Assembly: GCF_030068615.1 (NCBI RefSeq)
Contig: NZ_JASJOC010000019.1
Coordinates: 1 to 43,489, forward strand
Source of the DNA: Halostagnicola sp. A-GB9-2
GTDB lineage: Archaea > Halobacteriota > Halobacteria > Halobacteriales > Natrialbaceae
Direction of reading: 5' to 3'
Length of the DNA: 43,489 bases
Shown: in pieces, positions 7,989-30,421 of the stretch
Layout of the letters: every line of letters starts with the position of its first letter
How positions within the stretch are numbered: position 1 is the stretch's first letter
The notes under the pieces: generated by a model
Told to the model about the DNA's origin: nothing
The model's database searches: none
Seen by the model: only the letters and a program-made list of their open reading frames with translations
Program-made: the position numbers and the translations under genes

Positions 7989-8939
7989 CTATCCGTCGGT
8001 ACCTCGGCGCTCGGCGGCGCGAACGACGTTCTTCACGAGCATTGCGAGCGTGATTGGACCGACGCCGCCGGGAACGGGCGTAATCGCGCTCGCTTTCTCC
8101 CTGGCGCTCTCGAACTCGACGTCGCCAACCACGTTGGCAGTCCCTGAACCGTGTCGACTGCTCGAGCCGTCATCCGTTTTGCCAGTCTCGGGTTCGCGGT
8201 TCGCGCTCACGTCGACGACCACCGCGCCGGAGGAGAGCATCGAGCCGTCGACCAGTTCCGGAGCGCCGCTGGCGGTGACGACGACGTCCGCCTGACGGGT
8301 CACCGACGCGAGGTCGGCCGTCTTCGAGTGACAGACGGTGACGGTCGCGTTTCCCGGCGTCCTGTCCTGTAGCAACAGGTTCGCCAGCGGTTTCCCGATG
8401 ATTCCAGATCGGCCGACGATCGCGACGTCCGCCCCCGCGACCGGAACGTCGTAGCTCGAAAGTAGCCGGCACACCGCTGCCGGCGTGGCCGGGACGAACC
8501 GTGGTTCGCCGGCGACGAGCCGGCCGAGGTTCTCGGGGTGGAAGCAGTCGACGTCCTTCTCGGGCTCGAGCCGCTGCCTGACCGCGGGCAGCGCGACGTG
8601 GTTCGGAAGCGGAACCTGGACGAACACGCCGTCGATCTCGGAATCGGTACACAGATCCTCGATCTCCCGATGGAGGCGTCGTGACGGTTCGGACGGGTCG
8701 AGACGGATGTCCCGCGTCGCAACGCCGACATCGTCGCAGGCAGCGTGCTTCAGGTCCATAAAGCGCTTGTCGGCCGGCTCCTCGCTCATCAGTACGGTCC
8801 CGAGCGTCGGGATGATACCTCGATCGCCGAGTTCGTGGACCCGGTCGCTCACCGCCTCGCGGATGTCCGCCGCAACCGGTTCGCCGAGGAGCAGTTCCGT
8901 CGACACGGTCTGAGTTCGACGGCGACGCTCTTGTAGCAT
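7989..8939 (-). CDS. folD: FolD: methylene-THF dehydrogenase/methenyl-THF cyclohydrolase (diverged)
   Basis: This 316-residue cytoplasmic enzyme links 5,10-methylene-THF to 10-formyl-THF using NAD(P). FolD hallmarks are DGVFVQVPLP, EKDVDCFHPENLGRL, the nucleotide-binding motif VGRSGIIGKPLANLL, and the C-terminal TPVPGGVGPIT. The catalytic lysine is K64 (DLKHAA), but the partner position, Tyr in the classic YxxxK motif, is F60 here (RFMDLK). DGFH is DCFH. An insertion of about 15 polar residues lies near residue 265 (TGKTDDGSSSRHGSG). Start at 8939 rather than 8963 is a judgement. It diverges from cysE. An N-terminal fragment of a more orthodox folD lies at 13032-13127. Confidence 0.85.
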   Translation of the reverse strand: MLQERRRRTQTVSTELLLGEPVAADIREAVSDRVHELGDRGIIPTLGTVLMSEEPADKRFMDLKHAACDDVGVATRDIRLDPSEPSRRLHREIEDLCTDSEIDGVFVQVPLPNHVALPAVRQRLEPEKDVDCFHPENLGRLVAGEPRFVPATPAAVCRLLSSYDVPVAGADVAIVGRSGIIGKPLANLLLQDRTPGNATVTVCHSKTADLASVTRQADVVVTASGAPELVDGSMLSSGAVVVDVSANREPETGKTDDGSSSRHGSGTANVVGDVEFESAREKASAITPVPGGVGPITLAMLVKNVVRAAERRGTDG

Positions 8940-9178
8940 TCGGCCCGGTAGCCGATGGTTCACTACGTAGGCGGCTCTCGCGGCCAGCTCCGGATCGAGT
9001 ACCGCGCGGTGTCCAGCCAGGAATCGCTCTGTGAGGCGATCTCTTGGGCCTTCGGTACTGGCTTGCCGTTATCGAACGCTCGGACAGTGTCGGCTCTTCG
9101 GCGCGACGATCGTCCGTTGATCCGCGATGCGTTCGGCCATTTACGTCTTTGTACGTAGCACGCGAAGGACCAACGGAC

Positions 9179-10162: not shown

Positions 10163-11029
10163 TCACTGATACCGGCCGAGAGTGTCCGCACGCCACGACT
10201 CGAGGTCCGGAACCTGGTTGAACGCGTAGATGTGAACGCCGCGGATGTCGTGGTAGGGGTCGGTCGCGTACGGCGCGAGACCTTCGATGAGTTCTTCGGG
10301 CACGTAGGTCCCCCGGGAGCCGACGAGCTGGCGGACGAAGCCGAGGACGCCGCTCGTCTTCTGGAGGAAACGGACCGAATCGCCGACGCCGACCTTTTTC
10401 GAGATACCCAGTAACCGCTGGTACTTCATAACGCCCGGAATGCCGACCTCGACCGGGAGCTCGATCCCCCGGTCACGGATGTCCGCGATCCACTCGAGGA
10501 TGGCGTCGGAATCGTAACACAGCTGTGTCACGATATACGTGGCGTAGGCCTCTTTCCTCGCCATCGACTCGGCGAGCACCTCGTCGTCGAGGAACGCGTG
10601 ACCCTCGGGGTAGCCGGTGATGCCGACCTCCTCGAACGCGTAGTCGAGTTCCTCGAGCGCCGAGAGGAGGTCGTACGCCGAGTGAAACTCCCCCACTGGC
10701 TCCTCGCGATCGCCACCCGGGACGAAGACGTCGGTAACGCCCGCGTCGGTGAGCCGTCCCGCGATCTCCTCGAGGTGGTCCTCGTTGCGAACGTAGCGCG
10801 CCGCGACGTGCGGGACGATCTCGTAGCCGCGATCGGTCGCTTTCTCGGTCCAGTCGATCGTCGCCTCGAGGCCGAGCGTCGGCGAGGTCGTGATCGCGAC
10901 CTCCGCGCCGTCCGGGAGGTGCCCCAGTTGTTCGTCGATACTCTCGAACGGCATCAGCTCGAAGCGCGGCTCCTCGAGTAACTCCACTACCCCTTCCGCC
11001 GTCGCAGTCGACTGTATTTCGGATGACAT
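10163..11029 (-). CDS. metF: Methylenetetrahydrofolate reductase (MetF-like)
   Basis: This 288-residue TIM-barrel flavoprotein interconverts 5,10-methylene-THF and 5-methyl-THF. Visible features are FELMPFES (strand 1 with the catalytic Glu region), ITTSPTLGLEATID, VPHVAARY, DVFVPGGDREEPVGEF (the MetF GD.. loop) and the late QLCYDSD and PVEVGIPGVM segments. It lies 235 bases downstream of the DmdA-like gene on the same strand, so the two are likely co-expressed. In that context it would oxidise the 5-methyl-THF released by demethylation. GGAG sits a few bases before the ATG on the minus strand. Confidence 0.85.
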   Translation of the reverse strand: MSSEIQSTATAEGVVELLEEPRFELMPFESIDEQLGHLPDGAEVAITTSPTLGLEATIDWTEKATDRGYEIVPHVAARYVRNEDHLEEIAGRLTDAGVTDVFVPGGDREEPVGEFHSAYDLLSALEELDYAFEEVGITGYPEGHAFLDDEVLAESMARKEAYATYIVTQLCYDSDAILEWIADIRDRGIELPVEVGIPGVMKYQRLLGISKKVGVGDSVRFLQKTSGVLGFVRQLVGSRGTYVPEELIEGLAPYATDPYHDIRGVHIYAFNQVPDLESWRADTLGRYQ

Positions 11030-11230
11030 GGTCTCACTCCTGTGGTGGCTGGTCCGTTCTTCGGCACGAACGCCCGTGACCGGGTCGAGTGAAGTCGGTC
11101 GTCGGCTGGCTCAGGTACCGCGTTGGGTCTCGAGCCCGACGTACGTATCGGCGGTGGCCGACACAGGACCGGTCCGTAGAGGCGTTGAACGGTTCGTTTC
11201 CGGCACCGTCGCGAGCGGTTCGTTCCTTCC

Positions 11231-11268
11231 GTCCCGGTCACGATTCTCCCGTCCCGGTCACGATTCAC
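11231..11268. repeat. Imperfect 20-bp tandem repeat overlapping a stop codon
   Basis: GTCCCGGTCACGATTCTCCC (11231-11250) is followed by GTCCCGGTCACGATTCACTC (11251-11270). The second copy runs into the stop codon and last codons of the DmdA-like gene (minus strand, stop at 11267-11265). The duplication lies between that gene and metF. Confidence 0.8.
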
Positions 11269-12647
11269 TCCGAGGCCTCCTCTCTGGCGTTCAGTTTGGC
11301 CTGCTCCCGGGCGCTCGGGTTGACCGACGGCTTGAACGGGACCTCCGAGACTTTGGCGTACACCGGCTCGCCGGGTTCCTCAGCGTACTCGTCCGGCAGG
11401 TGGACCTGGAACTCCGTCTCGATGTCGCCATCGTAGACCTCCATCGGATCGCCGTCGAGTTTCGCCGCCGGAACGAATCCGAGCGCGAGGTTCGTCTTGA
11501 GTTCGGGGTTGTACCACGGCGACGTGACGTAGCCGCAGTTCTCGCCGGTGTCGGGGTCGGAGATGAGCCAGAAGTCCGGCGCGTAGTCCCGAACCGGCTC
11601 GCCGGCCATCTTGAGGCCGACCATCTTGTGGACGAACGGGTACTCGCCGCTCTCGATCTGTGCCTGTTGGCGCTCGAGTTCTTCCTTGCCGACGTAGTCG
11701 ACGTCCTTGTCGTCGGGGACCTGGTAGCCGAGGTTGACTTGGAACGGCGAGGTCTCGTGATCCATGTCCTGGCCCCACGAGAGGATCCCTGCCGCGATAC
11801 GGCGGTGGTGTGCCGGCGCGACCTGCATCCCGCCGTGATCCCTGACGGACTCGAGGACGGGATCCCAGACCGCTTCGGCGTTTTTCGAGGCGTCCCGGAC
11901 GTAGATCTCGAAGCCTTTCTCGCCGGAGAAGCCGGTCTGGCTCACCAGCACCGAACAGCCGTCGATCTCGGCTTCCATCAGACCGTAATAGGGGATTTCC
12001 TCGACTTCCTCGCCGACGACGTCGGCCATTGCGTCGACGGAGCGCGGGCCCTGAATCTGCATCGGCGCGACGTCGATCTCGTCGATCTCGACGTCGAAGT
12101 CCATGCCAACGTTGACGCCCTGGAGCCACTGCATCAGCGTCGAGTCCGAGATCGAAAACCAGAACTCGTGTTCGCCCGGTCGCAACAACACGGGGTCGTT
12201 GAGGATGCCGCCGTCCTCGTTGCAGAGGATGACGTACTTGCCACGCATCGTCTCGATCTCGGTCGCGTCCCGGGTGATGACGTGGTTGGTGAGCGCCTCG
12301 GCGTCGGGCCCTTGGACGCGGATCTGTCGTTCGACCGCGACGTCCCAGAGCGTCACCCGGTTGACCAGCGCATCGTACTCCTCCATCATGCCGCCGTCTT
12401 CGGGCTCGACGAGGCCCCTCGGGTGGTAAATTCGGTTGTAGACCGTCGCCCGCCAGGCGCCGTTCTCCACGAACGATTTGTGGAAGAACGGTGACTTGCG
12501 AACGCGCGTGGAAACGAGCATCTCGATTCCTGGATCGCCGGACTGGCGCAGATTCCTCGGGAGGGTTCGATCCGACTGATCGACGCTCGGGTAGTTTGGG
12601 TGTTCCGTACTGTCCTGTTCCGGTGGCTGGCTGTCAGACATTACCAT
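11265..12647 (-). CDS. DmdA-like THF-dependent demethylase (GcvT superfamily)
   Basis: This 460-residue GcvT/aminomethyltransferase-fold protein resembles DMSP demethylase DmdA more than glycine-cleavage T-protein. Blocks matching what I recall of Pelagibacter DmdA, in order: STRVRKSPFF, TVYNRIYHPR, WDVAVERQIRVQGPDA, NDPVLLRPGEHEFWFSISDS, LSWGQDMDHETSPF, VTSPWYNPELKTNLALG. DmdA transfers a methyl group from DMSP to THF, giving 5-methyl-THF. With BCCT transporters and a dimethylglycine dehydrogenase nearby, glycine betaine is an equally good substrate guess. It has about 40 extra N-terminal and 50 extra C-terminal residues compared with 369-residue DmdA. A TATA-like TTTATATT (near 12670, minus strand) lies about 23 bases before the ATG. 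Superfamily sure, DmdA subgroup likely, substrate open. Confidence 0.75.
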   Translation of the reverse strand: MVMSDSQPPEQDSTEHPNYPSVDQSDRTLPRNLRQSGDPGIEMLVSTRVRKSPFFHKSFVENGAWRATVYNRIYHPRGLVEPEDGGMMEEYDALVNRVTLWDVAVERQIRVQGPDAEALTNHVITRDATEIETMRGKYVILCNEDGGILNDPVLLRPGEHEFWFSISDSTLMQWLQGVNVGMDFDVEIDEIDVAPMQIQGPRSVDAMADVVGEEVEEIPYYGLMEAEIDGCSVLVSQTGFSGEKGFEIYVRDASKNAEAVWDPVLESVRDHGGMQVAPAHHRRIAAGILSWGQDMDHETSPFQVNLGYQVPDDKDVDYVGKEELERQQAQIESGEYPFVHKMVGLKMAGEPVRDYAPDFWLISDPDTGENCGYVTSPWYNPELKTNLALGFVPAAKLDGDPMEVYDGDIETEFQVHLPDEYAEEPGEPVYAKVSEVPFKPSVNPSAREQAKLNAREEASE

Positions 12648-13031
12648 GCATATGTCTCCCGTAGAATATAAAAGTAGGAGATTTCCACCACTCCACCACT
12701 CTCGAAACCGGCAATAGTGCGCCAGAAGGGGCCTCGAGAAGGGTGATAGCTTAGATTCGACGAGGCGCAGTTGCGGGAGATTTTCGTCCGACTATACATA
12801 ACGTATATTTTACACGATGTGGAATTCGATCCGAACGGGCCCCGAAATCCGCACTCGAATCGGCTGATGCAGTGCATTGATAACTCTTCGCACTGCTAGC
12901 TTTCAGTATCGCCCGACGTGCGCGGACGTCCACAGGGACGACACGACGCACTCGTCGGGAGCGACGCAGCGGTGAGAGAGAATGACCTTCGACGCAACCG
13001 ACACGTACGATAGGACCGACGGTGAGTTTCC
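12648..13031. promoter_or_regulatory. Intergenic region between DmdA-like gene and folD relic
   Basis: There is no gene here. It holds the DmdA-like promoter (near 12661-12675), the inverted repeat TATAC-ATAAC-GTATA (12793-12807) in AT-rich DNA, and the inverted repeat GCAGTGC/GCACTGC (12869-12875, 12890-12896). The last two could be operator or hairpin structures for either neighbour. Confidence 0.4.
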
Positions 13032-13127
13032 GTGACCCACGTCATCGACGGCGACGCGGTGGCGAACCGAATTCAGGACGCCCTCCGCGACTGTATCGAC
13101 GGCCTCGAGCAGATCAAACTCCCGTGA
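13032..13127 (+). pseudogene. folD N-terminal fragment (31 codons)
   Basis: GTG at 13032 opens a frame reading VTHVIDGDAVANRIQDALRD and on to QIKLP before TGA (13125-13127). The (T)xxIDGxAVAxxIxxxL pattern is the universal FolD N-terminus. Nothing of the rest of FolD follows; the dehydratase gene begins 7 bases later. It is best read as the stub of a lost folD copy, truncated by deletion. It could still be translated and couple to the next gene. The intact but diverged folD lies 4 kb away on the other strand. Confidence 0.6.
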
Positions 13128-13134: not shown

Positions 13135-14370
13135 ATGAGCCGAGACGAACTTCCCGTCACGTTCGCTGACGTCGAAGCGGCCCGTGAGCGACTCGACGAT
13201 CCGTCGATCGTCAAGCGGACACCAGTCGAGCGGAACACGTCGCTCGAGGCAATGACCGGCGCCACGGAGGTCATGCTCAAACTCGAGCACCTCCAGTGGA
13301 CTGGCTCGTTCAAGACCCGCGGGGCGTACAACAAGATCCAGCGCTGTCTGGAGGAGGGGGAACTCGAGCGGGTCGTCGCGGCGAGCGCCGGAAATCACGC
13401 ACAGGGCGTCGCCCTCGCCGCGACGAAGCTCGGCGTCGATTCGACGATCGTCATGCCGACGACCGCTCCTCAGACGAAGATCGACGCCACGCGCGGCTAC
13501 GGCGGGACCGTCGAACTCGTCGGAAAGGACTTCCAGGAGGCGACGAACTTCGCGCGCGAGTTAGCTGGGGAATCGGAGGCCGAGTTCGTCCACGCGTTCG
13601 ACGACCCGGCGATCGTCGCCGGCCAGGGAACGCTCGGACTCGAGATGGTCGAAGACGTTCCCGAGGTCGACACCGTCGTCGTGCCGATCGGCGGCGGCGG
13701 TCTGATCAGCGGGATCGCAACCGCGTTCGCCGAACGCAGCCCCGAGACGCGGATCGTTGGCGTCCAGGCGGCGGAGGCGGCGACCGTCTCCGACAGCCTG
13801 GACAAGGGTGTCCCACAAACGCTCGACACGGTCGATACAATCGCGGACGGAATCGCAACGGGCGGCATCTCCGAGCTGACGCTGTCGATTATGGAGCGAC
13901 ACGTCGACGAGGTCGTCACGGTGACGAACGGCGAGATCGCCGAAGCCGTACTGGTTCTGCTGGAGCGAGCGAAACAGTTGGTGGAAGGGGCTGGCGCCGC
14001 CGCAGTTGCAGCGATCCGAAGCGACGCGGTCGACGTCGACGGCGAGCGCATAATGCCGCTGCTCTGTGGCGGCAACCTCGACATGACGATGCTCCGCGCG
14101 ATACTCATCCACGCACTGACTCACCGCGAGCAGATCCTGCGATTGCGGGTACACATCGACGACCGACCCGGAAAGATGGCGGAGCTCTCCGGGGTTATCG
14201 CCGACCACGGTGCCAACATCCAGACCGTCCGCCACGACCGTGTCCTCGAGGACCTGGACGTCGGCGAGGCCTACCTGATCTTCCAGGTCGAAACCAGCGG
14301 TGCGGAACACGCCCGAAAGATCATCGAGGCGATCGCTGACCACGGGTACGAGGTCGACGTGGTGAACTAA
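13135..14370 (+). CDS. ilvA: Threonine/serine ammonia-lyase with ACT domain
   Basis: This 411-residue fold-type II PLP enzyme deaminates L-threonine to 2-oxobutyrate or L-serine to pyruvate. PLP binds K60 in TGSFKTRGAYNK; the phosphate loop is PIGGGGLISG (about 184-193), and SAGNHAQG is the conserved asparagine loop. A C-terminal ACT domain (from about residue 333, LRVHIDDRPGKMAELSGVIA) suggests allosteric control, as in the single-ACT short IlvA/TdcB forms. It sits just downstream of the folD stub. In this context it could turn serine made from glycine and methylene-THF into pyruvate. An ordinary isoleucine-pathway role is the simple alternative. Confidence 0.9.
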   Translation: MSRDELPVTFADVEAARERLDDPSIVKRTPVERNTSLEAMTGATEVMLKLEHLQWTGSFKTRGAYNKIQRCLEEGELERVVAASAGNHAQGVALAATKLGVDSTIVMPTTAPQTKIDATRGYGGTVELVGKDFQEATNFARELAGESEAEFVHAFDDPAIVAGQGTLGLEMVEDVPEVDTVVVPIGGGGLISGIATAFAERSPETRIVGVQAAEAATVSDSLDKGVPQTLDTVDTIADGIATGGISELTLSIMERHVDEVVTVTNGEIAEAVLVLLERAKQLVEGAGAAAVAAIRSDAVDVDGERIMPLLCGGNLDMTMLRAILIHALTHREQILRLRVHIDDRPGKMAELSGVIADHGANIQTVRHDRVLEDLDVGEAYLIFQVETSGAEHARKIIEAIADHGYEVDVVN

Positions 14371-15302: not shown

Positions 15303-17099
15303 ATGGCAGACGAAGACAAACGCGGAATACAGGAAGGTCTGTTCTACGCGGAGACGGACCGAGAACCGGGCGACAAGAACTGGCGAGGATACGGGTTCGA
15401 CATCAACCCACCCGTATTTCTCATCGCGGGAGGGTTGATCATCCTCTTTATTGCTCTCTCGCTCGTGTTCCCGGATCAGGCGGGGACGATGTATCAGGAC
15501 ACTCGAGTCGCAGTGTCCGATTACTTCGACTGGCTGTTCATCCTGGCCGCTAACATTTTCATTATCTTCATGGTCTATCTTGCGATAAGCAGGTACGGCT
15601 CGATACGACTCGGCGGCGTCGACGGCGAGAAGGAGTTCAGCGACATCTCGTGGGTCGCGATGCTGTTCAGCGCGGGTATGGGGATCGGCCTCATGTTCTT
15701 CGGTGTCGCCGAACCGGTGTTTCACCTCTTCGACCCGCACCTGGGTGCCGAGGCGGGAACCGAGGGTGCCGGCGAAGTGGCGCTTGCGGTGTCGCTGTTC
15801 CACTGGGGCTTTCACCCGTGGGCGATCTACGCGTTGGTCGCGCTCAGCCTGGCGTTCTTCTCGTACAATCGCGGGCTGCCACTGACTTTCCGGTCGGTGT
15901 TCTACCCGGTGCTCGGTGATCGGATCTACGGCTGGCCGGGACACCTCATCGACATCTTCACCATCTTCGCGACGCTGTTCGGCCTCGTGACCTCTCTCGG
16001 GTTAGGCGCATTGCAGATCAATGCGGGGCTGACGTTCGTTGGCCAGGAGGTGGGCGCGTTCCCCGCAGTGCCCGACTCGATCTGGGTTGCAGTCGCCATC
16101 ATCGGAGTCGTCACGGGGATGGCGATCGTCTCGGTCTACCTCGGCCTCGACAAGGGGATCCGACGGCTCAGCAACCTGAACCTCACGCTGATGATGATTC
16201 TTCTGGCGTCGGTGTTCGTCCTCGGGCCGACGCTGTTCATCCTCGGTGCGTTGCCACAGGGCATCGGCGGCTACCTCGGCAACTTCTTCGAGCTGTCCTT
16301 CTTCGGCAACTCGTTCGACAACCACTACTTCCAGGGTTCGGAGTACTACGGCTCGGGCGGCGAGGGTGAGGGTGCCTTCCTCGTCGACTGGACGGTGTTC
16401 TACTGGGCTTGGTGGATTTCCTGGTCGCCGTTTGTCGGGATGTTCATCGCCCGAATCTCGAAGGGCCGCTCCATCCGGGAGTTCGTCGGTGGAGTGCTCT
16501 TGATCCCCGTCGTATTCTCCTTCGCCTGGTTCGCGGCGATGGGCGGGAGTGCCCTCAGCTTCGAACTGAACGAGGCGACGGAAGGGGCGATCAGCGGACC
16601 GGTGTTCGAGGTCGGTGAAGAGGTCGCGATGTTCGCGATGTTCGATCTGATGCCGGGAACGGTGCTCCTGTCCCTGCTCGCGATCATCCTGGTGACGACG
16701 TTCTTCGTGACCTCCTCGGACTCGGGATCGCTCGTTCTCGAACACCTGAGCACCGGCGGCAAACACGAGACGCCGCCAGCCGGCCGCGTCTTCTGGGCCG
16801 CATCAGAGGGGCTAGTCGCCGCCACGTTGCTGATCGCCGGCGGCGACGCGGCCGTCGAGGCACTCCAGGCGGCCGCCATCGCCAGCGGACTCCCGTTCAC
16901 CGTTATTCTGCTGTTCATGATCTACGCCGTGATGATCGGTCTCAGGCGGGAGTACAGGCTCCTCCAGTCCGACGAGTTCACCGAGTTGATAGACGATCTC
17001 GAGGAGGAAGAGGAGATCGTCGTCACGAGCCAGACCGGTGACCTCGTTACCCACGTCAGGACCAGAGAGGACAGAGTTATCGACGTCAGTGACGACTGA
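15303..17099 (+). CDS. BCCT-family betaine/choline-type transporter 1
   Basis: This 598-residue secondary transporter has 12 core membrane helices. BCCT hallmarks are the glycine stretch SAGMGIGLMFFGVAEPVFH (GMGIG at 125-129) and the signature FYWAWWISWSPFVGMFIARI, then SKGRSIREFVGG. GMGIG is the form found in Na+-coupled betaine carriers such as BetP. Substrates of the family include glycine betaine, DMSP, carnitine and choline. The C-terminus is acidic (DDLEEEEEIVV), which in relatives can carry osmosensing. UspA genes follow on the other strand. It likely supplies the methylated osmolyte used by the neighbouring demethylating enzymes, or serves osmoprotection alone. Confidence 0.9.
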   Translation: MADEDKRGIQEGLFYAETDREPGDKNWRGYGFDINPPVFLIAGGLIILFIALSLVFPDQAGTMYQDTRVAVSDYFDWLFILAANIFIIFMVYLAISRYGSIRLGGVDGEKEFSDISWVAMLFSAGMGIGLMFFGVAEPVFHLFDPHLGAEAGTEGAGEVALAVSLFHWGFHPWAIYALVALSLAFFSYNRGLPLTFRSVFYPVLGDRIYGWPGHLIDIFTIFATLFGLVTSLGLGALQINAGLTFVGQEVGAFPAVPDSIWVAVAIIGVVTGMAIVSVYLGLDKGIRRLSNLNLTLMMILLASVFVLGPTLFILGALPQGIGGYLGNFFELSFFGNSFDNHYFQGSEYYGSGGEGEGAFLVDWTVFYWAWWISWSPFVGMFIARISKGRSIREFVGGVLLIPVVFSFAWFAAMGGSALSFELNEATEGAISGPVFEVGEEVAMFAMFDLMPGTVLLSLLAIILVTTFFVTSSDSGSLVLEHLSTGGKHETPPAGRVFWAASEGLVAATLLIAGGDAAVEALQAAAIASGLPFTVILLFMIYAVMIGLRREYRLLQSDEFTELIDDLEEEEEIVVTSQTGDLVTHVRTREDRVIDVSDD

Positions 17100-20168: not shown

Positions 20169-22028
20169 ATGGGGCTTCAGGGAGTCAGCCCAGCCGAACG
20201 GGTGCTTCGGAAGCTGCTGGCTCCGCTCTGTGTCCTCTCGGGGGCCGTCGTCGTGTTGGGTTTTTTCTTCCCCGAACTCGTGGGGGAAACGATCTCCGGG
20301 CGAATCTGGCTCGTCATCTCGCTCGTCTTCTTCGGGTCGGGGTTGGCATACCTCGCCGTGTTGCCGGCCGAGAGTGACGAAAGCATGAGCGAGCTTGATC
20401 CGGAGTTTCTGCTCCGGGTCCGTCGGCTCGGGCTGACTGGCACCGTCAGGGGATTTCTCTCCCGCCAGGATCCAGTTACGTTTGGGGTTCCGGTCGCTGC
20501 GTTCGCCCTCTTTTTTCTCGGGCAGTTGCTGGTGCCGTCAGGAACGATCGCCACCGTCGGTGCCACACAGCGGGCCGTCACCACGTACGGAGGCTGGCTG
20601 TTCGTCGCGGTCATGCTGCTCGCGGTGGTGTTCTCTCTGTACCTGTTGGTGGGGCCGTGGGGAACGGTAAAACTCGGTGGTCCCGACGCCGAACCGGCGT
20701 ACACCTACCCCGTCTACTTTACCATGTTCTTCACAGCCGGCATCGCCGCCGGAATCGTTTTTTGGGGGCCAGCCGAGGCGCTGTTTCACTACGAGACGCC
20801 ACCGCCGTACTTCGACGCCGAACCACAGTCGGAGGCGGCAGCCGGGGCGGCACTCACCTACGCACTGTTCCATTGGGGCTTCTGGGCCTGGAGCGCCTAT
20901 ATCGCCGTCGGCGTGCCGATCGCCTACTACGTCTACCAGCGGGGAGCACCGTTACGGGTTTCGACGATCCTGACGCCGTTTCTCGGCGTGGAAAACCTCG
21001 ACTCGGTGTGGTGTCGGATCGTCGACCTGCTTGCAATCTTCGCGACGATCGGCGGGATCGCCACCTCCATCGCGCTCGTTGGCGAGCAGTTCCTCACCGG
21101 GATCCAATTCCAGTGGGATGTGGCGTTCGGTACCGTTGGATCGGTACTCTTTGTCGCCGGGTTGACGTTCGTCTTCGTCGTATCGGCACAGAGCGGCGTC
21201 CACCGGGGAATCAGACGGATCGCGGCCGTCAACCTCGTCCTGTTCGGCCTGTTTGTGGTGTTGTTTTTCGCCGTCGCACCGCGAACGGTCGTCGTCGAGA
21301 GTTCCTCGCGAGCGATTGGGAGCTACGCCGTCAACGCGGTCCCGATGACCCTCCATCTGGGGAACGGATTGGTCGCCGACCCGTGGGTCGCTGACTGGAC
21401 GATCTGGAACTGGGCGTGGTGGTTCTCCTGGGCTCCGTTCGCCGGCCTCTTCCTGGCCGCCCTCTCTCGTGGCCGGCGGATCCGAACGGTCGTCCTGACG
21501 GGCTTTGTCGCGACCGCATTGGCGACGATGGTCTGGTTTCTCCTGTTGGGTTCGACCTCGCTTCACCTCCAGCAGACGAGCGCTGTGGACGTCCTCGCAG
21601 CGATCGATGCCTACGGCGGCGCCGAGGCCGTCGCTGGCTTCCCGGTCTTCGAGGCACTCGCGATAAGCCAGCTCTTCATGTTCCTCTTTCTCGCGTTGAT
21701 CGTCGTCTTCATGGCGACTTCCGCCGACACGTCTACACTCGTCGTAGCGGTGCTGGCGACGAGACGCGAATTCGCACCGACGACTGGCGCGATCATTTTT
21801 TGGGGAATATTTCAGGGACTCGTCGCCATCTCGGTGCTCGTCACCGGTAGCGCCGAAGTCCTGCAGGCGATGGCCGTGTTGACCGGCGGCCCGTTCGCCC
21901 TGGTCGTCCTGATCGCCCTGGTCGGCCTCGTCGGAACGTTCTACAGACACGAACGCGGTCGGAGATCGATCGTCGGTACTGCACGCGTGAAGCTGGCTAG
22001 AGAAGCTGAAGACGACGACCGGGAATAG
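20169..22028 (+). CDS. BCCT-family transporter 2 (diverged, N-terminally extended)
   Basis: This 619-residue transporter has about 100 extra N-terminal residues containing two further membrane helices (about 17-65) before the 12-helix BCCT core. The BCCT signature is present (WTIWNWAWWFSWAPFAGLFL, then AALSRGRRIR). The glycine stretch is changed: FFTAGIAAGIVFWGPAEALF instead of the GMGIG form of transporter 1. This suggests a different substrate or coupling ion. TATA-like TTTATAAT lies about 31 bases before the ATG. It follows the K+ channel on the same strand with its own promoter. Confidence 0.88.
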   Translation: MGLQGVSPAERVLRKLLAPLCVLSGAVVVLGFFFPELVGETISGRIWLVISLVFFGSGLAYLAVLPAESDESMSELDPEFLLRVRRLGLTGTVRGFLSRQDPVTFGVPVAAFALFFLGQLLVPSGTIATVGATQRAVTTYGGWLFVAVMLLAVVFSLYLLVGPWGTVKLGGPDAEPAYTYPVYFTMFFTAGIAAGIVFWGPAEALFHYETPPPYFDAEPQSEAAAGAALTYALFHWGFWAWSAYIAVGVPIAYYVYQRGAPLRVSTILTPFLGVENLDSVWCRIVDLLAIFATIGGIATSIALVGEQFLTGIQFQWDVAFGTVGSVLFVAGLTFVFVVSAQSGVHRGIRRIAAVNLVLFGLFVVLFFAVAPRTVVVESSSRAIGSYAVNAVPMTLHLGNGLVADPWVADWTIWNWAWWFSWAPFAGLFLAALSRGRRIRTVVLTGFVATALATMVWFLLLGSTSLHLQQTSAVDVLAAIDAYGGAEAVAGFPVFEALAISQLFMFLFLALIVVFMATSADTSTLVVAVLATRREFAPTTGAIIFWGIFQGLVAISVLVTGSAEVLQAMAVLTGGPFALVVLIALVGLVGTFYRHERGRRSIVGTARVKLAREAEDDDRE

Positions 22029-22143: not shown

Positions 22144-23862
22144 TCAGAAGAGCCCGGAGACGTCCCCATCGGAGTGAAGATCCATCCCGGCGGCAGCAGG
22201 TTCGGCAGGAAGGCCGGGCAGCGTGAGGACGTCGGCGGTGAGCACCACGAGGAAACCGGCACCCGCCGAGGGGTAGATTTCGTTTACCTCGAGCGTCCAG
22301 TCGTCGGGCGCACCCTTGCGACTCGCGTCGTCACTGAGCGAGTGGAACGTCTTCGACACACAGATCGGGACCTCGTCGAAGCCAAGGTTCGTGAGCCGCT
22401 CGATGTCGTCTTCGGCGTCGCTGTGGTACTCGACGGCGTCGGCACCGTAGATTTCGGTGGCGACGGTTTCGATCTTCGATTTGATCGACGCGTCGACGTC
22501 ATAGAGCGGTTCGAACGTCGATTCGGACTCTGCAGCCTCGACTAGGCTCTCGGCGAGGTCGATCCCACCCTCTCCACCGTCGGTGAAGACGTTCGACTCG
22601 GCGACCCTGACCTCGAGTTCGTTCTCACAGTGGCCGACGACCGCGTCGACCTCCGCGTCGGAATCGTCCGGGAAGCGGTTGAGGGCGACGACGACCGGAA
22701 CGCCGAACTGCTGGAGGTTGGCAACGTGTTTGTCGAGGTTCTCGAACCCGTTGCGAACCGCGTCCACGTCTTCTGCCTCGAGTTCGTCGAGGTCGGGCGG
22801 CCACATCTCTTGGCCGTGGTACTTCAGTGCTCGCACCGACGCGACGAGCGTCACCGCGTCGGGTTCCATCTCACCGAACCGGCAGACGATGTTCATGAAC
22901 TTCTCGGCGCCCAGATCGGAGCCGAAGCCGGCCTCGGTGATGAGATAGTCGGAGAGGTGGGCGGCGACCCCGTCTGCGATCAGCGAGTTGGTCCCGTGGG
23001 CGATGTTCGCGAACGGGCCGCCGTGGACGAACGCGGGCGTGCCCTCGATCGTCTGGACGACGTTTGGTTTCAACGCGTCTTTCAGCAGGATCGCAGCGGG
23101 ACCCGTCGCGCCGATGTCGTCTGCGGTAACCGGGTCGCCGCTCTCGTCGTAGGCGACGATGATGCGAGCCAGCCGTTCCTTGAGATCGTCGATCCCGTCG
23201 GCGAGACAGAGGACGGCCATCAGTTCCGACGCGGCCGTCAGGATGAACCCGTCCTGGCGAGGGACGCCGGTGACGTCACCACCGAGACCGATCACGGTCT
23301 CGCGGAGCACGCGATCGTTCATGTCGATCGCACGCGGCCAGTTGACCCAGTTGACCGCGATGTCGAGTTCGTTCCCGTGTTTGATGTGGTTGTCGAGCAT
23401 CGTCGCGATGAGGTTGTGCGCCGACGTGAGCGCGTGGAGGTCGCCGGTGAAGTGGAGGTTGATGTCCTCCATCGGGAGTACCTGGGAGTACCCGCCGCCT
23501 GCAGCGCCACCTTTGACCCCGAAGACGGGACCCAGCGACGGTTCGCGGATCGCGATGAGCGCGTCCTTGTCGATCTGATTGAACGCCTGTCCGAGCCCGA
23601 CCGTCGTCACCGTCTTGCCCTCGCCCAGCGGCGTTGGGGTCATCCCGGTGACCAGAACGAGCTTGCCGTCAGCCGATCGTTCCTCGTGGATCCGCTCGAT
23701 CGCCTCGAGTGTGACCTTTGCTTTGTGTTTGCCGAACAGTTGCAGGTCGTCCCGCATAAGCCCGAACGGCTCGACGACGTCGGCGATGTGGCTCGTCTCA
23801 GCGGACTGTGCAATTTCGTAGTCGGTCGGTATCGACTGGTCGGTTTCCTCAGAGGCTGTCAT
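22144..23862 (-). CDS. fhs: Formate-tetrahydrofolate ligase
   Basis: This 572-residue enzyme links formate, ATP and THF to 10-formyl-THF; the reaction is reversible, so it can also recover ATP from 10-formyl-THF. Family motifs are the P-loop TPTPLGEGKTVTTVGLGQAF, REPSLGPVFGVKGGAAGGGY, the adjoining LPMEDINLHFTGD, and the late LTADVLTLPGLPAEPAA. Length is close to the usual 555-560. Fhs is not universal in archaea, and its presence beside folD, metF and folC-folP points to a working THF one-carbon route. The promoter (near 23904-23911) carries a palindrome. Confidence 0.93.
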   Translation of the reverse strand: MTASEETDQSIPTDYEIAQSAETSHIADVVEPFGLMRDDLQLFGKHKAKVTLEAIERIHEERSADGKLVLVTGMTPTPLGEGKTVTTVGLGQAFNQIDKDALIAIREPSLGPVFGVKGGAAGGGYSQVLPMEDINLHFTGDLHALTSAHNLIATMLDNHIKHGNELDIAVNWVNWPRAIDMNDRVLRETVIGLGGDVTGVPRQDGFILTAASELMAVLCLADGIDDLKERLARIIVAYDESGDPVTADDIGATGPAAILLKDALKPNVVQTIEGTPAFVHGGPFANIAHGTNSLIADGVAAHLSDYLITEAGFGSDLGAEKFMNIVCRFGEMEPDAVTLVASVRALKYHGQEMWPPDLDELEAEDVDAVRNGFENLDKHVANLQQFGVPVVVALNRFPDDSDAEVDAVVGHCENELEVRVAESNVFTDGGEGGIDLAESLVEAAESESTFEPLYDVDASIKSKIETVATEIYGADAVEYHSDAEDDIERLTNLGFDEVPICVSKTFHSLSDDASRKGAPDDWTLEVNEIYPSAGAGFLVVLTADVLTLPGLPAEPAAAGMDLHSDGDVSGLF

Positions 23863-23911: not shown

Positions 23912-24208
23912 GTTCCGGATACGACGTGGGTGGCGCGCCGAATCGCGGCGATAGCTGTCGTACAGTGCTTGGTAGTTCAGTCCCCTCTCGAGTGCCGGAA
24001 GCCGTGGTATTTCTGTGGCACGGTACCGGCGGCGGCCTGCGGATGGCGACTGGCGCGAGTTACGTCCTCAAATCGGCGTCCGAACGTGGACGGAAGCTGA
24101 CGACAGAACGGACACAGCCACACGGCAGAACGTGTAAGAAAATGTACTACTTGTGGGCCGACACCGGTCAGTAGGAACTTTATTGGCTGGCGTGTGATCC
24201 ACCATGTT
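23912..24208. promoter_or_regulatory. Divergent intergenic region fhs / folC-folP
   Basis: No gene is seen. A TATA-like CTTTATTGG (about 24177-24185) lies about 28 bases before the ATG at 24209 and fixes that start as leaderless. Confidence 0.4.
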
Positions 24209-26674
24209 ATGGAGTACCACGAATCCGTCTCCAGGATGGAACGACTGCGACGGCTCCGTCCGGAAATGGGGACGGAAACGACCGCTGCGATGCTTTCGAA
24301 TCTGGGGGATCCACACGAGGACCTGGTCGCCGTTCAGATCGCCGGATCGAACGGCAAGGGGAGTACGGCTCGCGTTCTCGACCGAATCTTCCGAGCGGAA
24401 GGGCACACTGTCGGCTGTTACACCTCTCCCGACCTGAACGACCGGCGTGAGCGTATCACGGTCGGGGGCCGGAAGATCCCGAAACACGAGGTGGTGCGGT
24501 TCGTCGAGACCGTCTGGCCCTTCGTCGTCGACCGGGCCGTTGAGGGTGCGTCGCCGACGTTCTTCGAAGTGTTCACCGCCATGGCCTTCTGGCACTTCGA
24601 CCGCGAGGATGTCGACGTCGCCGTCCTCGAGGTCGGCATCGGCGGCCGCTACGACGCGACGAGCGTGGTCGATCCCGCGGCGGCCGCGGTCACGACCGTC
24701 AGCCTCGAGCACACCGACATCCTCGGCGACACGGTTGAAGAGATCGCTCGCGACAAGGCCCAGGTCGCGCCGGCGGACGCGCCGCTGGTGACCGGCGCAA
24801 CGGGCGCAGCGCTGGACGCGATCCGAGAGGAGACCGACGTCGTACGGGTCGGCCTCGACGCGAAATCCGATCGCGACGGAGACTCGACCGGTCGATCAGC
24901 CGAAACAATCGACGTGGTAGCAGAAGAGACTGGGATGGTTTTGCCGACGACGTCGTCGATCTCACTGGTCGGTCCCGACTGGGAGGTCCAGAGCCGAACG
25001 CCGCTACTCGGTCGCCACCAGGCGGTTAACGCGGGAATCGCCGCCACGCTCGCCAGACAGATCGCCGGAACGTCCGAGCGAGACATTGCGGCGGGGATCC
25101 GCAACGTCCGGTGGCCGGGCCGGTTTGAAGTGATGGACGACGAGCCACTCGCGATTCTCGACGGCGCGCACAACCCCGACGCGTGTGCGACAGTCGCGAC
25201 GCTTCTCGAACGGTTCGAGTACGACGACCTCCACCTCGTGTTCGGGGCATTACGTGACAAGGACTACCCGGAGATGTGTCGGATGCTCCCGGATCCCGAC
25301 CGGGTCTATCTCGCCGCGGCGGACGTCGACCGTGCCCTTGGAACGGACGTGCTCGCCGAGACGTTCGACCGCGAGACGGACGCCGAGACCGATCGATTCG
25401 GGTCGGTCCTCGTCGCCCTGGATCGGGCACTCCGGACGGCTGAGCCGTCGGACTGCGTGCTCGTGACCGGATCACTCTCCGTCGTCGGGGAAGCCCGCGA
25501 CTGGTGGACGCGGACGCTGCAATCGGTCCAGACGCCCACCCCAGAACGCGCTCGAGCAGTCATGCGGCGTGCGGACGTCCCCGCTTCGGAGCGCCGGGAC
25601 CGCGCGGATCGGTTTCCCCACCGAACGCTTCGGTTTCATGTCCGCCAGAAGGAGGCGTCCGAACTGTGCACACTGATGGAGTCACTAGGCGGCACCTGTG
25701 CGGTCGCCGGTATCGGTGCGACGGATCTGCACGTCGAAGTCGTGCTCGGTGGCACGCTCGCGCAGTTTACGGATCTCGTCGTCCGACTGCGCGGGCGGGC
25801 GGTCGGCGGCCGTCGGTTGGCCGAACAGCTGACCGACGCGCTCGGCATCGGGGCCGACGGCTCGAGCGGCGAGTACCCGTGGAACGAGGGGACGGCGGTG
25901 ATGGGGATCCTGAACGTGACGCCGGACAGCTTCCACGACAGTGACGAGTACGACGCGGTCGACGAGGCCGTCGCTCGCGCCGAGGAGATGGTCGCGGCGG
26001 GGGCGAACGTCGTCGACGTCGGCGGCGAATCGACCCGACCGGGAGCCGAGCCGACCTCCGCCGAGACGGAACGTGAGCGTACTCTTCCAGTTCTCGAGCG
26101 CCTCGGCGGGCTCGAGGCGATGGTCTCGATCGACACGCACAAACCGTCGGTCGCAGAGGCTGCGCTCGACGCGGGCGCAGACATGGTCAACGACGACACC
26201 GGGCTCGCGGACGCAGAGATGCGACACATCGTTGCCGAACGGGAGGTACCGGCCGTGCTCATGCACAGTCCCTCCGCCCCGGTCAACCCCGGTCGACAGC
26301 ACACCTACGACGATGTCGTCGACGACGTGCTCGAGCGGCTCACGGAGCGTGTGCTCCTCGCCGAGCGCGCGGGGATCGATCGCTCGCGACTCGTGCTCGA
26401 CCCTGGGCTCGGCTTCGGAACGACTGCCGCCGAGAGCTTCGAGTTGCTCGATCGGATCGCGGAGTTCCGTGCGCTGGGGACACCGCTGATGATCGGCCAC
26501 TCCCGCAACTCGATGTTCGAGCACGCGGCGCGTCGCGACGAGGATCGAGTCGTGCCGACCGCCGTCGCAACGGCGCTGGCGGCCGAGCGCGGCGTCGATC
26601 TCGTTCGTGTCCACGACATTGTTCCGAACGCCGCCGCGATCGCCACCGCCGAGCGGACTGTCGCCGACCGGTAG
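24209..26674 (+). CDS. folCP: FolC-FolP fusion: folylpolyglutamate/dihydrofolate synthase plus dihydropteroate synthase
   Basis: This protein of about 821 residues has two parts. The N-terminal half is FolC: P-loop AGSNGKGSTARVLDRIF, the substrate loop TSPDLNDRRERITVGG, VGIGGRYDATSVVDP and DGAHNPDA. A short linking region follows (about 440-555). The C-terminal DHPS has GILNVTPDSF, DVGGESTRPGAEP, SIDTHKPSVAEAAL and DPGLGFG. Such fusions are known in haloarchaea. Two lysines usual in DHPS are replaced: GFGK is GFGT (T738) and SRK is SRN (N767). The ATG at 24209 is preferred over GTG at 24194 because of the TATA box at 24177-24185. It makes the THF cofactor needed by neighbouring enzymes. Confidence 0.88.
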   Translation: MEYHESVSRMERLRRLRPEMGTETTAAMLSNLGDPHEDLVAVQIAGSNGKGSTARVLDRIFRAEGHTVGCYTSPDLNDRRERITVGGRKIPKHEVVRFVETVWPFVVDRAVEGASPTFFEVFTAMAFWHFDREDVDVAVLEVGIGGRYDATSVVDPAAAAVTTVSLEHTDILGDTVEEIARDKAQVAPADAPLVTGATGAALDAIREETDVVRVGLDAKSDRDGDSTGRSAETIDVVAEETGMVLPTTSSISLVGPDWEVQSRTPLLGRHQAVNAGIAATLARQIAGTSERDIAAGIRNVRWPGRFEVMDDEPLAILDGAHNPDACATVATLLERFEYDDLHLVFGALRDKDYPEMCRMLPDPDRVYLAAADVDRALGTDVLAETFDRETDAETDRFGSVLVALDRALRTAEPSDCVLVTGSLSVVGEARDWWTRTLQSVQTPTPERARAVMRRADVPASERRDRADRFPHRTLRFHVRQKEASELCTLMESLGGTCAVAGIGATDLHVEVVLGGTLAQFTDLVVRLRGRAVGGRRLAEQLTDALGIGADGSSGEYPWNEGTAVMGILNVTPDSFHDSDEYDAVDEAVARAEEMVAAGANVVDVGGESTRPGAEPTSAETERERTLPVLERLGGLEAMVSIDTHKPSVAEAALDAGADMVNDDTGLADAEMRHIVAEREVPAVLMHSPSAPVNPGRQHTYDDVVDDVLERLTERVLLAERAGIDRSRLVLDPGLGFGTTAAESFELLDRIAEFRALGTPLMIGHSRNSMFEHAARRDEDRVVPTAVATALAAERGVDLVRVHDIVPNAAAIATAERTVADR

Positions 26675-27063: not shown

Positions 27064-29598
27064 ATGAGCGACAGCGACTTCCCGTCGAGTGCGGACACAG
27101 TCATTATCGGGACGGGCATCGTCGGGAACAGTCTCACCTATCACCTCGCAGAACAGGGTCGGGACGATATCCTGTTGATGGACAAGGGGCCGCTCCCCGA
27201 TCCGGGTGGCTCGACCGGTCACGCGTCGAACTTCTTGATGCCGGTCGAGCACTCGAAGGAGATGACCCACCTCACTCGCCGGAGCATCGAACAGTACGAC
27301 GACATGGACACGTTCACGAACAGCGGCGGGATCGAGGTGGCCCGGACCGACGAGCGGATGGACGAACTCGAGCGACGCGTCCAGTCGGCCAAATCGTGGG
27401 GCGAAGCCGGGCGACTGCTCACCGTCGAGGAGATCGAAGAGATGGTGCCGTACGTCAATACGGACATCATCAAGGGCGGCTTCTACAGCGAGGGTGCCGG
27501 AACCTGCGATCCGCTCCGCGCTGGCGAGGTCATGCGGGCGCGGGCGGACGATGCGATGGAGGGCGGTCTGACGCTCTCGCCGAACACCGAGGTGATCGAT
27601 CTGCACGTCGAGAACGGAGCGATCCAGGCCGTCGAAACTGACCGCGGGACGGTCGAGGCCGGCGAGGTTGTGATCGCCGCGGGGCTGTGGAGCCCCAAGA
27701 TCGCCGAGATGGCCGGCGCCGAGATCCCCCTGACCCCAGCAGTCCACCAGATGGTCAGCGTCGGACCGATCTCGTTCTTCGAAGACTACGAGGGCGAGAT
27801 TTCCTTCCCCGTCGTGCGGGACATGGACACCCAGATGTACGAGCGCCAGCACGGTAACGACCTCGAGGTCGGCTCTTACCAGCACCGGCCGATCCTCTGG
27901 GACGTCGAGGACATCCCCTCGATCGACGAGGCGCCGCTGTCGCCGACACAGCCGCCGCTGACCGACGACGCGTTCGAGCAGTCGATGGCCGATGCGCTCG
28001 AGATCGTTCCGGAACTGCTCGACGATCCCGAGGCCGGAATCCGCCACGAGATCGACGGGTTGCTGTCGGTCACCCCGGACGGAATGCCGCTACTGGGTCC
28101 GATTCAGGACGTCGAGGGGCTGTGGTCGTGTGCCGCGGTCTGGATCAAGGAAGCGCCCGCGATCGGCGAGGCCGTCGCCCAGTGGATGACGCGGGGCTGG
28201 TCGGACATCGACCTCCACGGCTCGGACGTCAACCGGTTCTACGAGTACGGAACCTCCAGGAAATTTGTCGAGAACCGCGCCCACGAGGGGTTCCAGAAGA
28301 TCTACGGTATCGTTCACCCGGCCGAACAGTGGCAGAGTTCGCGACCGCTGCGGACCAGCCCGTTTTACGACCGGCAGGACGCCCTCGGCGCGCGGTTCTT
28401 CGAAGCCGCCGGCTGGGAACGGCCGCAGTGGTTCGAGTCCAACGAGGATCTCCTCGAGCGCTACGATGACGACCTCGAGGGGCTGAAACGACCCAACGAG
28501 TGGGACTCGCGGTGGTGGTCGCCGATCATCCTGGCCGAACATCTGCACATGCGGGACAACGTCGCCATGGTCGGGGACATGGGCTTTGGCAAGTTCGACT
28601 TCGTGGGTTCGGACGTCGTCGACTACATGGAACGGATGGCCGTCGGCCGGACCGACGTCGACGTCGGGAAGACGGTCTATACGCCGATTCTCGCCGAGAA
28701 CGGCGGCTTCGTCTCGGACCTGACGATCGCCCGGCTCGGTCCCGAACACTACCGGGTCATCACCGGCGGGGCGGCGGCTGGCGGCGACCGCGCATGGTTC
28801 GGGGATCACATCGGCACGGACGAGGACGTGACGCTGATCGACCGCTCCGAGTCGCTGTGCACGCTCGGCGTTTGGGGCCCCGACGCCCGTGCGGTCGTCG
28901 ATAGCGTGGTCGAGGAGGACGTATCCCACGAATCGTTCCCGCCGTACACCGCACAGGAACTCACCATCGGCGAGGTCGACTGCTGGGCGATGCGCCTCTC
29001 CTACGTCGGAGAACGGGGCTGGGAGATCTACACATCAATGGGCCAGGGCCAGCGCCTCTGGGATATCATCGCCGAGGCCGGCGAGGAGTACGATATCCGG
29101 CCCGTCGGCATGGGCGTTTACGGAACGACCGGCCGCATGGAGAAGGGGTACCGCCTCCACGGCCACGAGCTCGAACTCGAGTACACCCCGGCGGAGGCCG
29201 GACTTACGTTCCACGGCGTCAAGGACGCCAACTTCATCGGGAAGGAAGCCTACGCCGAGGCGCTCGAGGAAGACAACGCAGCCACGCTCTGTACCCTCTC
29301 GGTGGACGATCACACGTCGTCCGACGGCGAACGCCGGTTCATGCTCGGCAACGAGCCGGTACTGAACGAGGACGGCGACGTGATCGTCGACGAGGAGGGC
29401 CGGGAGTCCTACGTCACGAGCGCGGGAACCGGTCCGAGCGTCGGCAAACACCTGCTGATGGCGTACCTCCCGCCGGAGTACGCCGACGAGGGGCAGGGAC
29501 TGCACGTCGAGTACATGGGCGAGCAGTACCCCGTGACCGTCGACGTCGTCGGGAGCGAGCCGCTGTTCGATCCGGAGAACGAACGGATCCGCAGCTAG
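27064..29598 (+). CDS. Dimethylglycine/sarcosine dehydrogenase-like flavoprotein with GcvT domain
   Basis: This 844-residue two-part enzyme is a FAD-dependent amine dehydrogenase (DAO fold, residues 1 to about 390) joined through a linking domain to a GcvT domain (about 480-844). The dinucleotide motif is GTGIVG (16-21). H53 in GSTGHASN lies where eukaryotic dimethylglycine dehydrogenase attaches FAD covalently (WHAAG). In the GcvT half, D552 (GGFVSDLTIARL) matches the folate-site Asp of T-protein. Family enzymes demethylate dimethylglycine or sarcosine, trap formaldehyde as 5,10-methylene-THF and pass electrons to ETF, and etfB-etfA follow directly. It has a strong Shine-Dalgarno. The exact substrate is not decidable here. 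Confidence 0.85.
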   Translation: MSDSDFPSSADTVIIGTGIVGNSLTYHLAEQGRDDILLMDKGPLPDPGGSTGHASNFLMPVEHSKEMTHLTRRSIEQYDDMDTFTNSGGIEVARTDERMDELERRVQSAKSWGEAGRLLTVEEIEEMVPYVNTDIIKGGFYSEGAGTCDPLRAGEVMRARADDAMEGGLTLSPNTEVIDLHVENGAIQAVETDRGTVEAGEVVIAAGLWSPKIAEMAGAEIPLTPAVHQMVSVGPISFFEDYEGEISFPVVRDMDTQMYERQHGNDLEVGSYQHRPILWDVEDIPSIDEAPLSPTQPPLTDDAFEQSMADALEIVPELLDDPEAGIRHEIDGLLSVTPDGMPLLGPIQDVEGLWSCAAVWIKEAPAIGEAVAQWMTRGWSDIDLHGSDVNRFYEYGTSRKFVENRAHEGFQKIYGIVHPAEQWQSSRPLRTSPFYDRQDALGARFFEAAGWERPQWFESNEDLLERYDDDLEGLKRPNEWDSRWWSPIILAEHLHMRDNVAMVGDMGFGKFDFVGSDVVDYMERMAVGRTDVDVGKTVYTPILAENGGFVSDLTIARLGPEHYRVITGGAAAGGDRAWFGDHIGTDEDVTLIDRSESLCTLGVWGPDARAVVDSVVEEDVSHESFPPYTAQELTIGEVDCWAMRLSYVGERGWEIYTSMGQGQRLWDIIAEAGEEYDIRPVGMGVYGTTGRMEKGYRLHGHELELEYTPAEAGLTFHGVKDANFIGKEAYAEALEEDNAATLCTLSVDDHTSSDGERRFMLGNEPVLNEDGDVIVDEEGRESYVTSAGTGPSVGKHLLMAYLPPEYADEGQGLHVEYMGEQYPVTVDVVGSEPLFDPENERIRS

Positions 29599-29647: not shown

Positions 29648-30421
29648 ATGAACGTACTAGCCTGTATCAAACGGGTACCGAACACCGGTGCAAAGATCGT
29701 ACTAACGGACGACAACCAACGGATCGACACGAGTAATCTCGGGTTTACCATGAGCCCGCACGAGGAGTGTGCCGTCGAGGAAGCCATCCAGCAAGTCGAA
29801 ACCCATGGCGGTTCGACGCACGTCCTCACGCTCGGCCCGGAGGAAGCGACCGAACAGCTCCGGACGGGACTTGCCATGCGGGCCGACGAGGCGACGCTGC
29901 TCGAGACTGACGGCGAGGAGTGGGGCCCCCGGGAGACCGCGTCGGCCATCGCGACCGCCATTCGCGACCTGCCCGAGGACGACGCCGAGTTCGACCTGCT
30001 GCTGTTCGGGAACGAGTCGGCCGATATGGCCAACTACCAGGTCGGCGTCCGCGTCGCGACCGAACTCGATCTCCCCTGCGTGACGGGGATCAAATCACTC
30101 GAGGTCGAGGACGGCGTGGCGACCGCGAAACGCGAGATCGGCGGCGGCGAGGAAGTGTACGAGATCGACCTGCCAGCGGTCGTCTCGGTAAAAGAAGGGA
30201 TCAACGAGCCCCGATACGCCTCGATGCGCGCCAAGATGCAGGCGCGTCGCCAGGAGGTCGGCCGCCTCGAGCCCGATCGGACGGAGGCTCCGGGCACGTT
30301 CGAGAAAACCCGCCTGGAGGCTCCCGAAGCGGACGACTCCGACGCCATGGTTCTCGGCGAGGGGACCGATGCTGTCCCGGAGATCGTCGAACTACTCGAG
30401 TCGGAGATCGAAGTACTATGA
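29648..30421 (+). CDS. etfB: Electron transfer flavoprotein beta subunit
   Basis: This 257-residue soluble ETF beta chain begins MNVLACIKRVPNTGAKIVLT. The SPHEECAVEEAI region and the later NESADMANYQVGVRVATELD belong to the conserved AMP-binding beta fold. It takes electrons from acyl-CoA or amine dehydrogenases together with EtfA. It begins 49 bases after the dehydrogenase-like gene and overlaps etfA by four bases (ATGA at 30418-30421). The gene order makes the dimethylglycine/sarcosine dehydrogenase-like protein the probable electron donor. Confidence 0.92.
   Translation: MNVLACIKRVPNTGAKIVLTDDNQRIDTSNLGFTMSPHEECAVEEAIQQVETHGGSTHVLTLGPEEATEQLRTGLAMRADEATLLETDGEEWGPRETASAIATAIRDLPEDDAEFDLLLFGNESADMANYQVGVRVATELDLPCVTGIKSLEVEDGVATAKREIGGGEEVYEIDLPAVVSVKEGINEPRYASMRAKMQARRQEVGRLEPDRTEAPGTFEKTRLEAPEADDSDAMVLGEGTDAVPEIVELLESEIEVL

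Follow-up and report, generated by a model that had tools for sequence, protein, structure and literature searches.

A DmdA-like protein of haloarchaea, predicted to be a glycine betaine:THF methyltransferase, associated with MetF and dimethylglycine dehydrogenase

In hypersaline waters glycine betaine is one of the main osmolytes. To our knowledge, three enzyme types other than the one considered here are known for its first demethylation. GbcA Rieske proteins, MtgB (MTTB) acting with a corrinoid, and BHMT all carry out the step from betaine to dimethylglycine that is predicted below for a haloarchaeal protein; unlike them, the proposed route would require neither iron and O2 nor a corrinoid nor homocysteine, and would pass the methyl group directly to THF. 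In the open-licence literature we found no account of a DmdA-type enzyme that demethylates betaine with the help of THF. In R. pomeroyi growth on betaine proceeds via MtgBCD, with MetF2 and a serine ammonia-lyase raised (PMC12478193), which is a good parallel to the MetF and IlvA-like enzymes encoded at the locus described here. For haloarchaea the use of betaine has been mentioned only as a 'possibility' (PMC3102087).

A characterised relative of the haloarchaeal protein is the DMSP demethylase DmdA (NF009133/PRK12486), which has the same fold, the THF residues E204 and Y206 (in 3tfh, from Ca. Pelagibacter ubique) and the redox-neutral methyl transfer to THF that we predict for the haloarchaeal protein as well. 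Marine bacterial homologues (Lichenihabitans, Loktanella, Halomonas, Pelagibacteraceae and possibly SAR11_1265, PMC3160333) belong to the same supergroup. Sun et al. 2011 (PMC3160333) reported a SAR11 relative of DmdA beside metF and proposed a separate AMT, SAR11_1303, for betaine. Hernandez et al. 2020 (PMC7487153) assigned haloarchaeal homologues (AEM59334, CCC39909 and CAJ51984) to a clade distinct from DmdA and reported F at the position that contacts DMSP, the Trp of which they number W171 (W197 in 3tfh). These homologues very probably belong to the family studied here, and AEM59334 is, from its accession series, probably the protein of Haloarcula hispanica. That study interpreted the clade as dimethylglycine-dehydrogenase-like by threading; the present analysis draws on gene neighbourhood and a replacement profile.

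The window, by which we mean the whole stretch of DNA analysed, comprises the first 43,489 bases of its contig in a genome of 4.68 Mb, and its gene content is a one-carbon and betaine set (Table 1). The DmdA-like gene is an uninterrupted ORF that starts at 12647 and ends at 11265; the original prediction had its coordinates exactly right and had given no strand. An overlapping ORF on the plus strand (10890-12494) was rejected as a shadow frame because the minus-strand protein has homologues in 97 of 390 other haloarchaeal genomes, with identities of at most 91%. A TATA-like sequence, TTTTATATTCTA, lies about 20 bases ahead of the ATG, as expected of a haloarchaeal gene that is probably leaderless. 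A MetE-like protein (38173-39387; 120 bits to the PRK04326 methionine synthase, cut-off 406) is encoded apart from the one-carbon cluster.

Table 1. Genes of the one-carbon and betaine set in the window
Feature	Coordinates	Strand	Basis and remarks
THF-dependent demethylase, DmdA-like (460 aa); predicted to be a glycine betaine:THF methyltransferase	11265..12647	-	NCBIfam, PDB match, tree, residues
MetF-like (5,10-methylene-THF reductase family)	10163..11029	-	Pfam MTHFR 48 bits; co-occurrence in 96 genomes
FolD (methylene-THF dehydrogenase/cyclohydrolase)	7989..8963	-	Pfam; 12/29 related loci
Threonine/serine ammonia-lyase, IlvA-like	13135..14370	+	TIGR01127 over cut-off; 15/29 related loci; candidate for the serine-to-pyruvate step
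BCCT transporter	15303..17099	+	best match glycine-betaine uptake family, under its cut-off; 15/29 related loci
Second BCCT transporter	20169..22028	+	8/29 related loci
Fhs, formate-THF ligase	22144..23862	-	806 bits, over cut-off
FolC-FolP fusion (folate synthesis)	24194..26674	+	
Dimethylglycine/sarcosine dehydrogenase-like (DMGDH)	27064..29598	+	FAD-dependent oxidoreductase domain and GCV_T domain
EtfB-like	29648..30421	+	inferred electron acceptor for the dehydrogenase
EtfA-like	30433..31389	+	

The best NCBIfam match of the DmdA-like protein was DMSP demethylase with 238.9 bits, 171 bits short of the equivalog cut-off of 410. The scores for GcvT (PRK00389, 154.5 against 300; TIGR00528, 126.2 against 235.85) and TMAO demethylase (152 against 1100) were also below their cut-offs. 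Pfam recognised a GCV_T domain (PF01571, 138.9 bits, cut-off 25.6), with GCV_T_C just under its cut-off, and no N-terminal FAD oxidoreductase domain; dimethylglycine/sarcosine dehydrogenases have ~850 aa, almost twice the length. The closest solved structure is 3tfh (~31% identity), whose 369 aa bear out the earlier remark that about 90 extra residues are found at the two ends. Identities to marine bacterial homologues are 34-41%, and those to homologues from Loktanella, Phaeobacter and Lichenihabitans are 35-39%.

In a maximum-likelihood tree of 61 rows, which held only two GcvT rows and a partial 3tfh sequence and had a long haloarchaeal stem, DmdA (99/96), a marine bacterial clade (98/98) and a haloarchaeal clade (100/100) formed one group against GcvT and Tdm (100/99). 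The AU test did not separate the possible orders of these clades (p 0.46-0.48; 0.457 for DmdA and haloarchaeal sisters), and the bacterial scan, which started out from a bacterial homologue and yielded bacteria only, may have missed the closest bacterial relatives of the haloarchaeal clade. Forcing the haloarchaeal proteins together with the two GcvT rows was 16 log units worse, a grouping thereby disfavoured though not formally rejected (AU p 0.153). On this basis the haloarchaeal proteins, within the GcvT fold family, appear to stand on the side of DmdA as a sister-level clade, and not to be members of DmdA. As regards the original designation of a DmdA-like demethylase, the protein is indeed nearer to DmdA than to GcvT (239 versus 154 bits); it may work like a DMSP demethylase, but by membership it is not one.

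The residues point in the same direction. All sequence blocks that had been taken as typical of DmdA occur in the expected order (RVRKSPF, TVYN, WDVAVERQ, NDPVLL, GQDMDHETSPF and TSPWYNPELKTN), but not all of them are diagnostic: GQDMDxxTxPF is also present in Thermotoga GcvT (1woo) and an RTSPF block in the window's own DMGDH-like protein, whereas YN, ERQ, NDP, the W and S of FWFSISD, and E190 do distinguish the protein from GcvT. Twenty-six columns that do not vary among five DmdA and whose residues are found in neither GcvT nor Tdm were scored in 41 haloarchaeal proteins, which retained 12 of them at a level of at least 90% (including Q65, N107, W120, S122, E147, S198 and Y206); V150 and S246 are further DmdA-class columns common to DmdA and the haloarchaeal protein. 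P97, S195, K199, Q200, G201 and E238 of DmdA are missing in the haloarchaeal and bacterial clades alike, and both clades, unlike DmdA, have Gln at position 154 and Arg at position 238 (numbered as in 3tfh). The position of W197 is occupied by Phe in all 41 haloarchaeal proteins and by Trp in 82 of 83 bacterial homologues; since two roseobacter DmdA carry Tyr there, we regard this position as a soft marker and rejected it as a decisive switch between DMSP and betaine. The T-protein aspartate (D108 in 3tfh, D151 here) and the THF-contacting Glu and Tyr (E204 and Y206 in 3tfh, E247 and Y249 here) are conserved; the active-site roles of DmdA residues are those given in PMC5395565 and PMC7487153. 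An AlphaFold model had 3tfh and 1woo as its top PDB fold matches, but with a pLDDT of 66 and a pTM of 0.62 it supports the fold only and not the docking of a substrate. In any case, substrate specificity in the GcvT family cannot be read from sequence.

As had been pointed out, the DmdA-like gene lies just upstream of metF: the MetF-like gene, whose product is above the Pfam gathering threshold for MTHFR and under the NCBIfam equivalog cut-off, is located 235 bp downstream on the same strand, and this linkage is conserved. Of the 391 Halobacteria genomes surveyed, 98, belonging to 34 of 86 genera, had a DmdA-like gene; it was absent from the other three sampled genomes of the genus to which the window belongs. 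The products fall into two paralogue groups (63-71% identity for the second). Within ~10 kb of the 29 first-group loci, homologues of MetF were found at 24, IlvA-like proteins and BCCT transporters at 15 each, DMGDH-like proteins at 14, FolD at 12 and Fhs at 8. Gene order varies among these loci, so the association outlasts rearrangement. A protein of ~400 aa lacking a Pfam match also recurs near the MetF and DmdA-like genes (16 of 29 first-group loci, 31-78% identity; for example at 12661-13860 of a related locus), and the ORF at 6394-7404 of the window may be a homologue. MetF was found in none of the 11 second-group loci in the stretch read; most of these loci contain HTH_10 regulators.

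The original prediction had also stated that DmdB, DmdC and DmdD are not seen. This was confirmed for the larger ORFs of the window and for 40 related haloarchaeal loci, with the exception of one generic AMP-ligase, whereas reference dmdA loci on roseobacter plasmids do have these partners. That the protein is a DMSP demethylase, passing a methyl group of DMSP to THF and releasing methylmercaptopropionate, is therefore quite unlikely, even though DmdA is the top-scoring family and the nearest solved structure, and BCCT carriers, with their broad substrate range, are able to import DMSP. Besides the missing partners, the position outside the DmdA clade, the score below the cut-off, Phe at 197 and the loss of S195, K199, Q200, G201 and E238 speak against it, and it leaves the tight association with DMGDH, and the betaine/dimethylglycine setting in general, unexplained.

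The marine bacterial homologues differ from the haloarchaeal proteins in their setting. A few adjoin MetF, FolD, PurU and BCCT genes, but many are found between genes for Lrp, OsmC, enoyl-CoA hydratase and acyl-CoA synthetase. This arrangement (Lrp, DmdA-like, OsmC, enoyl-CoA hydratase, acyl-CoA synthetase) was seen at two bacterial loci and ~20 others, also on a conjugative Phaeobacter plasmid, and is possibly an alternative DMSP demethylation operon. Because one marine bacterial clade at sister level includes SAR11 proteins and a DmdA relative adjoining metF has been reported in SAR11, one might suppose that the haloarchaeal enzyme demethylates methylmercaptopropionate or another thioether, as speculated for SAR11_1265 (PMC3160333). 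We consider this extremely unlikely: genes of the DMSP pathway are absent from the haloarchaeal loci, and MetF is near only 3 of 85 bacterial loci, which may or may not be orthologous to SAR11_1265.

A compact version of the gene set, in a cluster without a Rieske gene, is present on pHH400 of Haloarcula hispanica, where the DmdA-like protein is WP_014031189, while in H. marismortui a GbcA-like Rieske gene lies inside the same cluster. The neighbourhood alone is thus ambiguous, and it was the genome-wide profile that clarified the relation. MetF-like genes occur in 102 of 391 genomes and share 96 of these with the 98 genomes that have a DmdA-like gene, leaving 2 and 6 exceptions, respectively (Fisher p 3e-81). 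DMGDH-like proteins were encoded in 61 of 61 tested genomes with a DmdA-like gene and MetF and in 29 of 30 with only a GbcA-like Rieske gene, but in 1 of 50 with neither (pooled Fisher p 1e-35); the genomes are related, so both p-values overstate independence, and the profile is correlational, with a non-random DmdA-negative sample. The DMGDH-like gene lies no more than 25 kb from the DmdA-like gene in 54 of the 61 genomes (median 7.3 kb). GbcA-like Rieske and MTTB/MtgB genes were absent from 60 of the 61, and BHMT-family proteins (PF02574) from all, controls being positive. Hence no known betaine demethylase remains to supply DMGDH in these genomes. MetF, in turn, was present in 60 of 62 genomes with a DmdA-like gene and neither Rieske nor MTTB, but in only 3 of 48 with Rieske alone. 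In other words, DMGDH travels with a partner, either the Rieske protein or the DmdA-like protein, and MetF travels with the latter and not with the former. This is the core of our argument. A monooxygenase releases formaldehyde, and methyl transfer of the DmdA type leaves 5-methyl-THF; MetF is needed for the second product alone, and the observed pattern is as expected if only the DmdA-like route produces methyl-THF.

The GbcA-like Rieske genes (72 genomes; best NCBIfam match glycine betaine monooxygenase, 132-138 bits, cut-off 670) showed no significant tie to the DmdA-like gene (24/98 versus 48/293, p 0.10). MTTB exceeded its cut-off in 14 genomes, all of them with a DmdA-like gene, from which it is often 13-28 kb away on the same contig; corrinoid-type demethylation genes (MTTB, MtrH, RACo) do occur in haloarchaea. 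The genome studied here also encodes two GbcA-like Rieske proteins, on a different contig, and need not depend on the DmdA-like enzyme. Their genes lie in a second betaine-type island (first 57 kb of contig C37) together with two DMGDH-like proteins, GlyA, FolD, BCCT and an IlvA-like protein.

Other haloarchaeal copies of MetF have other producers of methyl-THF as neighbours. The second MetF of the genome (contig C6) adjoins a LigM/DesA-like O-demethylase, another methyl-THF producer, and more distant haloarchaeal copies adjoin RACo and MtrH genes. Six genomes carry MetF without a DmdA-like gene; in one of them MetF has a LigM-like protein encoded next to it, and in the other five no obvious partner was seen over ~6 kb. 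The contig C6 set (8435-9787 and 10698 onward: O-demethylase, with 472 bits to syringate O-demethylase and under the cut-off, AMP-ligase and MetF) possibly serves the use of methoxy-aromatics.

The almost perfect co-occurrence of MetF also bears on the idea that the protein is a free-standing T-protein, which would either capture the formaldehyde released by the FAD dehydrogenases or work for the glycine cleavage system. The common fold and the AU p of 0.15 for a forced GcvT grouping would fit, but 5,10-methylene-THF, the product of such an enzyme, needs no MetF. Moreover, the genome has a separate GcvT, the DMGDH-like proteins already carry a T domain and the GcvT cut-offs are not reached (154 against 300), which makes a T-protein very improbable. 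The same chemistry on another methylated onium compound (e.g. proline betaine, carnitine, choline or TMAO) is unlikely: DMGDH-like enzymes occur almost only with the DmdA-like gene or Rieske, which points to a product usable by DMGDH. Still, BCCT carriers are broad, the islands hold varied demethylases (MTTB, Rieske, LigM-like), and the second paralogue, with no MetF linkage, may use a different substrate.

The co-occurrence with DMGDH, the missing Rieske, MttB and BHMT and the pattern of MetF suggest that the DmdA-like protein most likely replaces betaine monooxygenase. It is probably a redox-neutral glycine betaine:THF methyltransferase, with MetF reoxidising 5-methyl-THF. We observed the fold family, the clade, the conservation of the aspartate and of the residues for THF, the linkage of the genes and the pattern of co-occurrence and replacement; for the reactions that follow, we infer substrate and direction throughout. 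Betaine imported by BCCT carriers would donate a methyl group to THF in a reaction that needs no B12, oxygen or flavin and leaves dimethylglycine and 5-methyl-THF. The MetF-like enzyme would work in the oxidative direction to 5,10-methylene-THF, from which FolD and Fhs would take the one-carbon unit on to formate. FAD/THF dehydrogenases with ETF would convert dimethylglycine to sarcosine and glycine, an activity on dimethylglycine assigned to DMGDH-like proteins by homology. Glycine and methylene-THF would give serine, which the IlvA-like lyase would deaminate to pyruvate. The reverse direction, betaine synthesis from methyl-THF, was set aside because the favourable course is for a quaternary ammonium to give up its methyl group to THF. 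Against betaine, characterised DmdA is reported to be specific for DMSP and close analogues (PMC5395565), and Haloquadratum walsbyi, which according to PMC7487153 appears to have homologues, gained no growth from betaine (PMC3102087). Nevertheless, the suggestion in the original prediction that betaine may be the true substrate is better supported by the profile than the DMSP activity of its title, although it is a prediction.

On balance, we favour the view that betaine breakdown can also begin by a fourth biochemical route, a direct, cofactor-light transfer from betaine to THF by a DmdA-type enzyme that exchanges with Rieske proteins across haloarchaea and is nearly always paired with an oxidative MetF. 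DmdA-family matches would then be no evidence of DMSP demethylation. Many haloarchaea have DMGDH and betaine carriers but no recognised enzyme for the first demethylation, a gap that the DmdA-like family would fill. If this is true, the gene behind the fourth route has a name and is open to testing in the model species Haloarcula hispanica, and the role of the patchily distributed haloarchaeal MetF would be explained.
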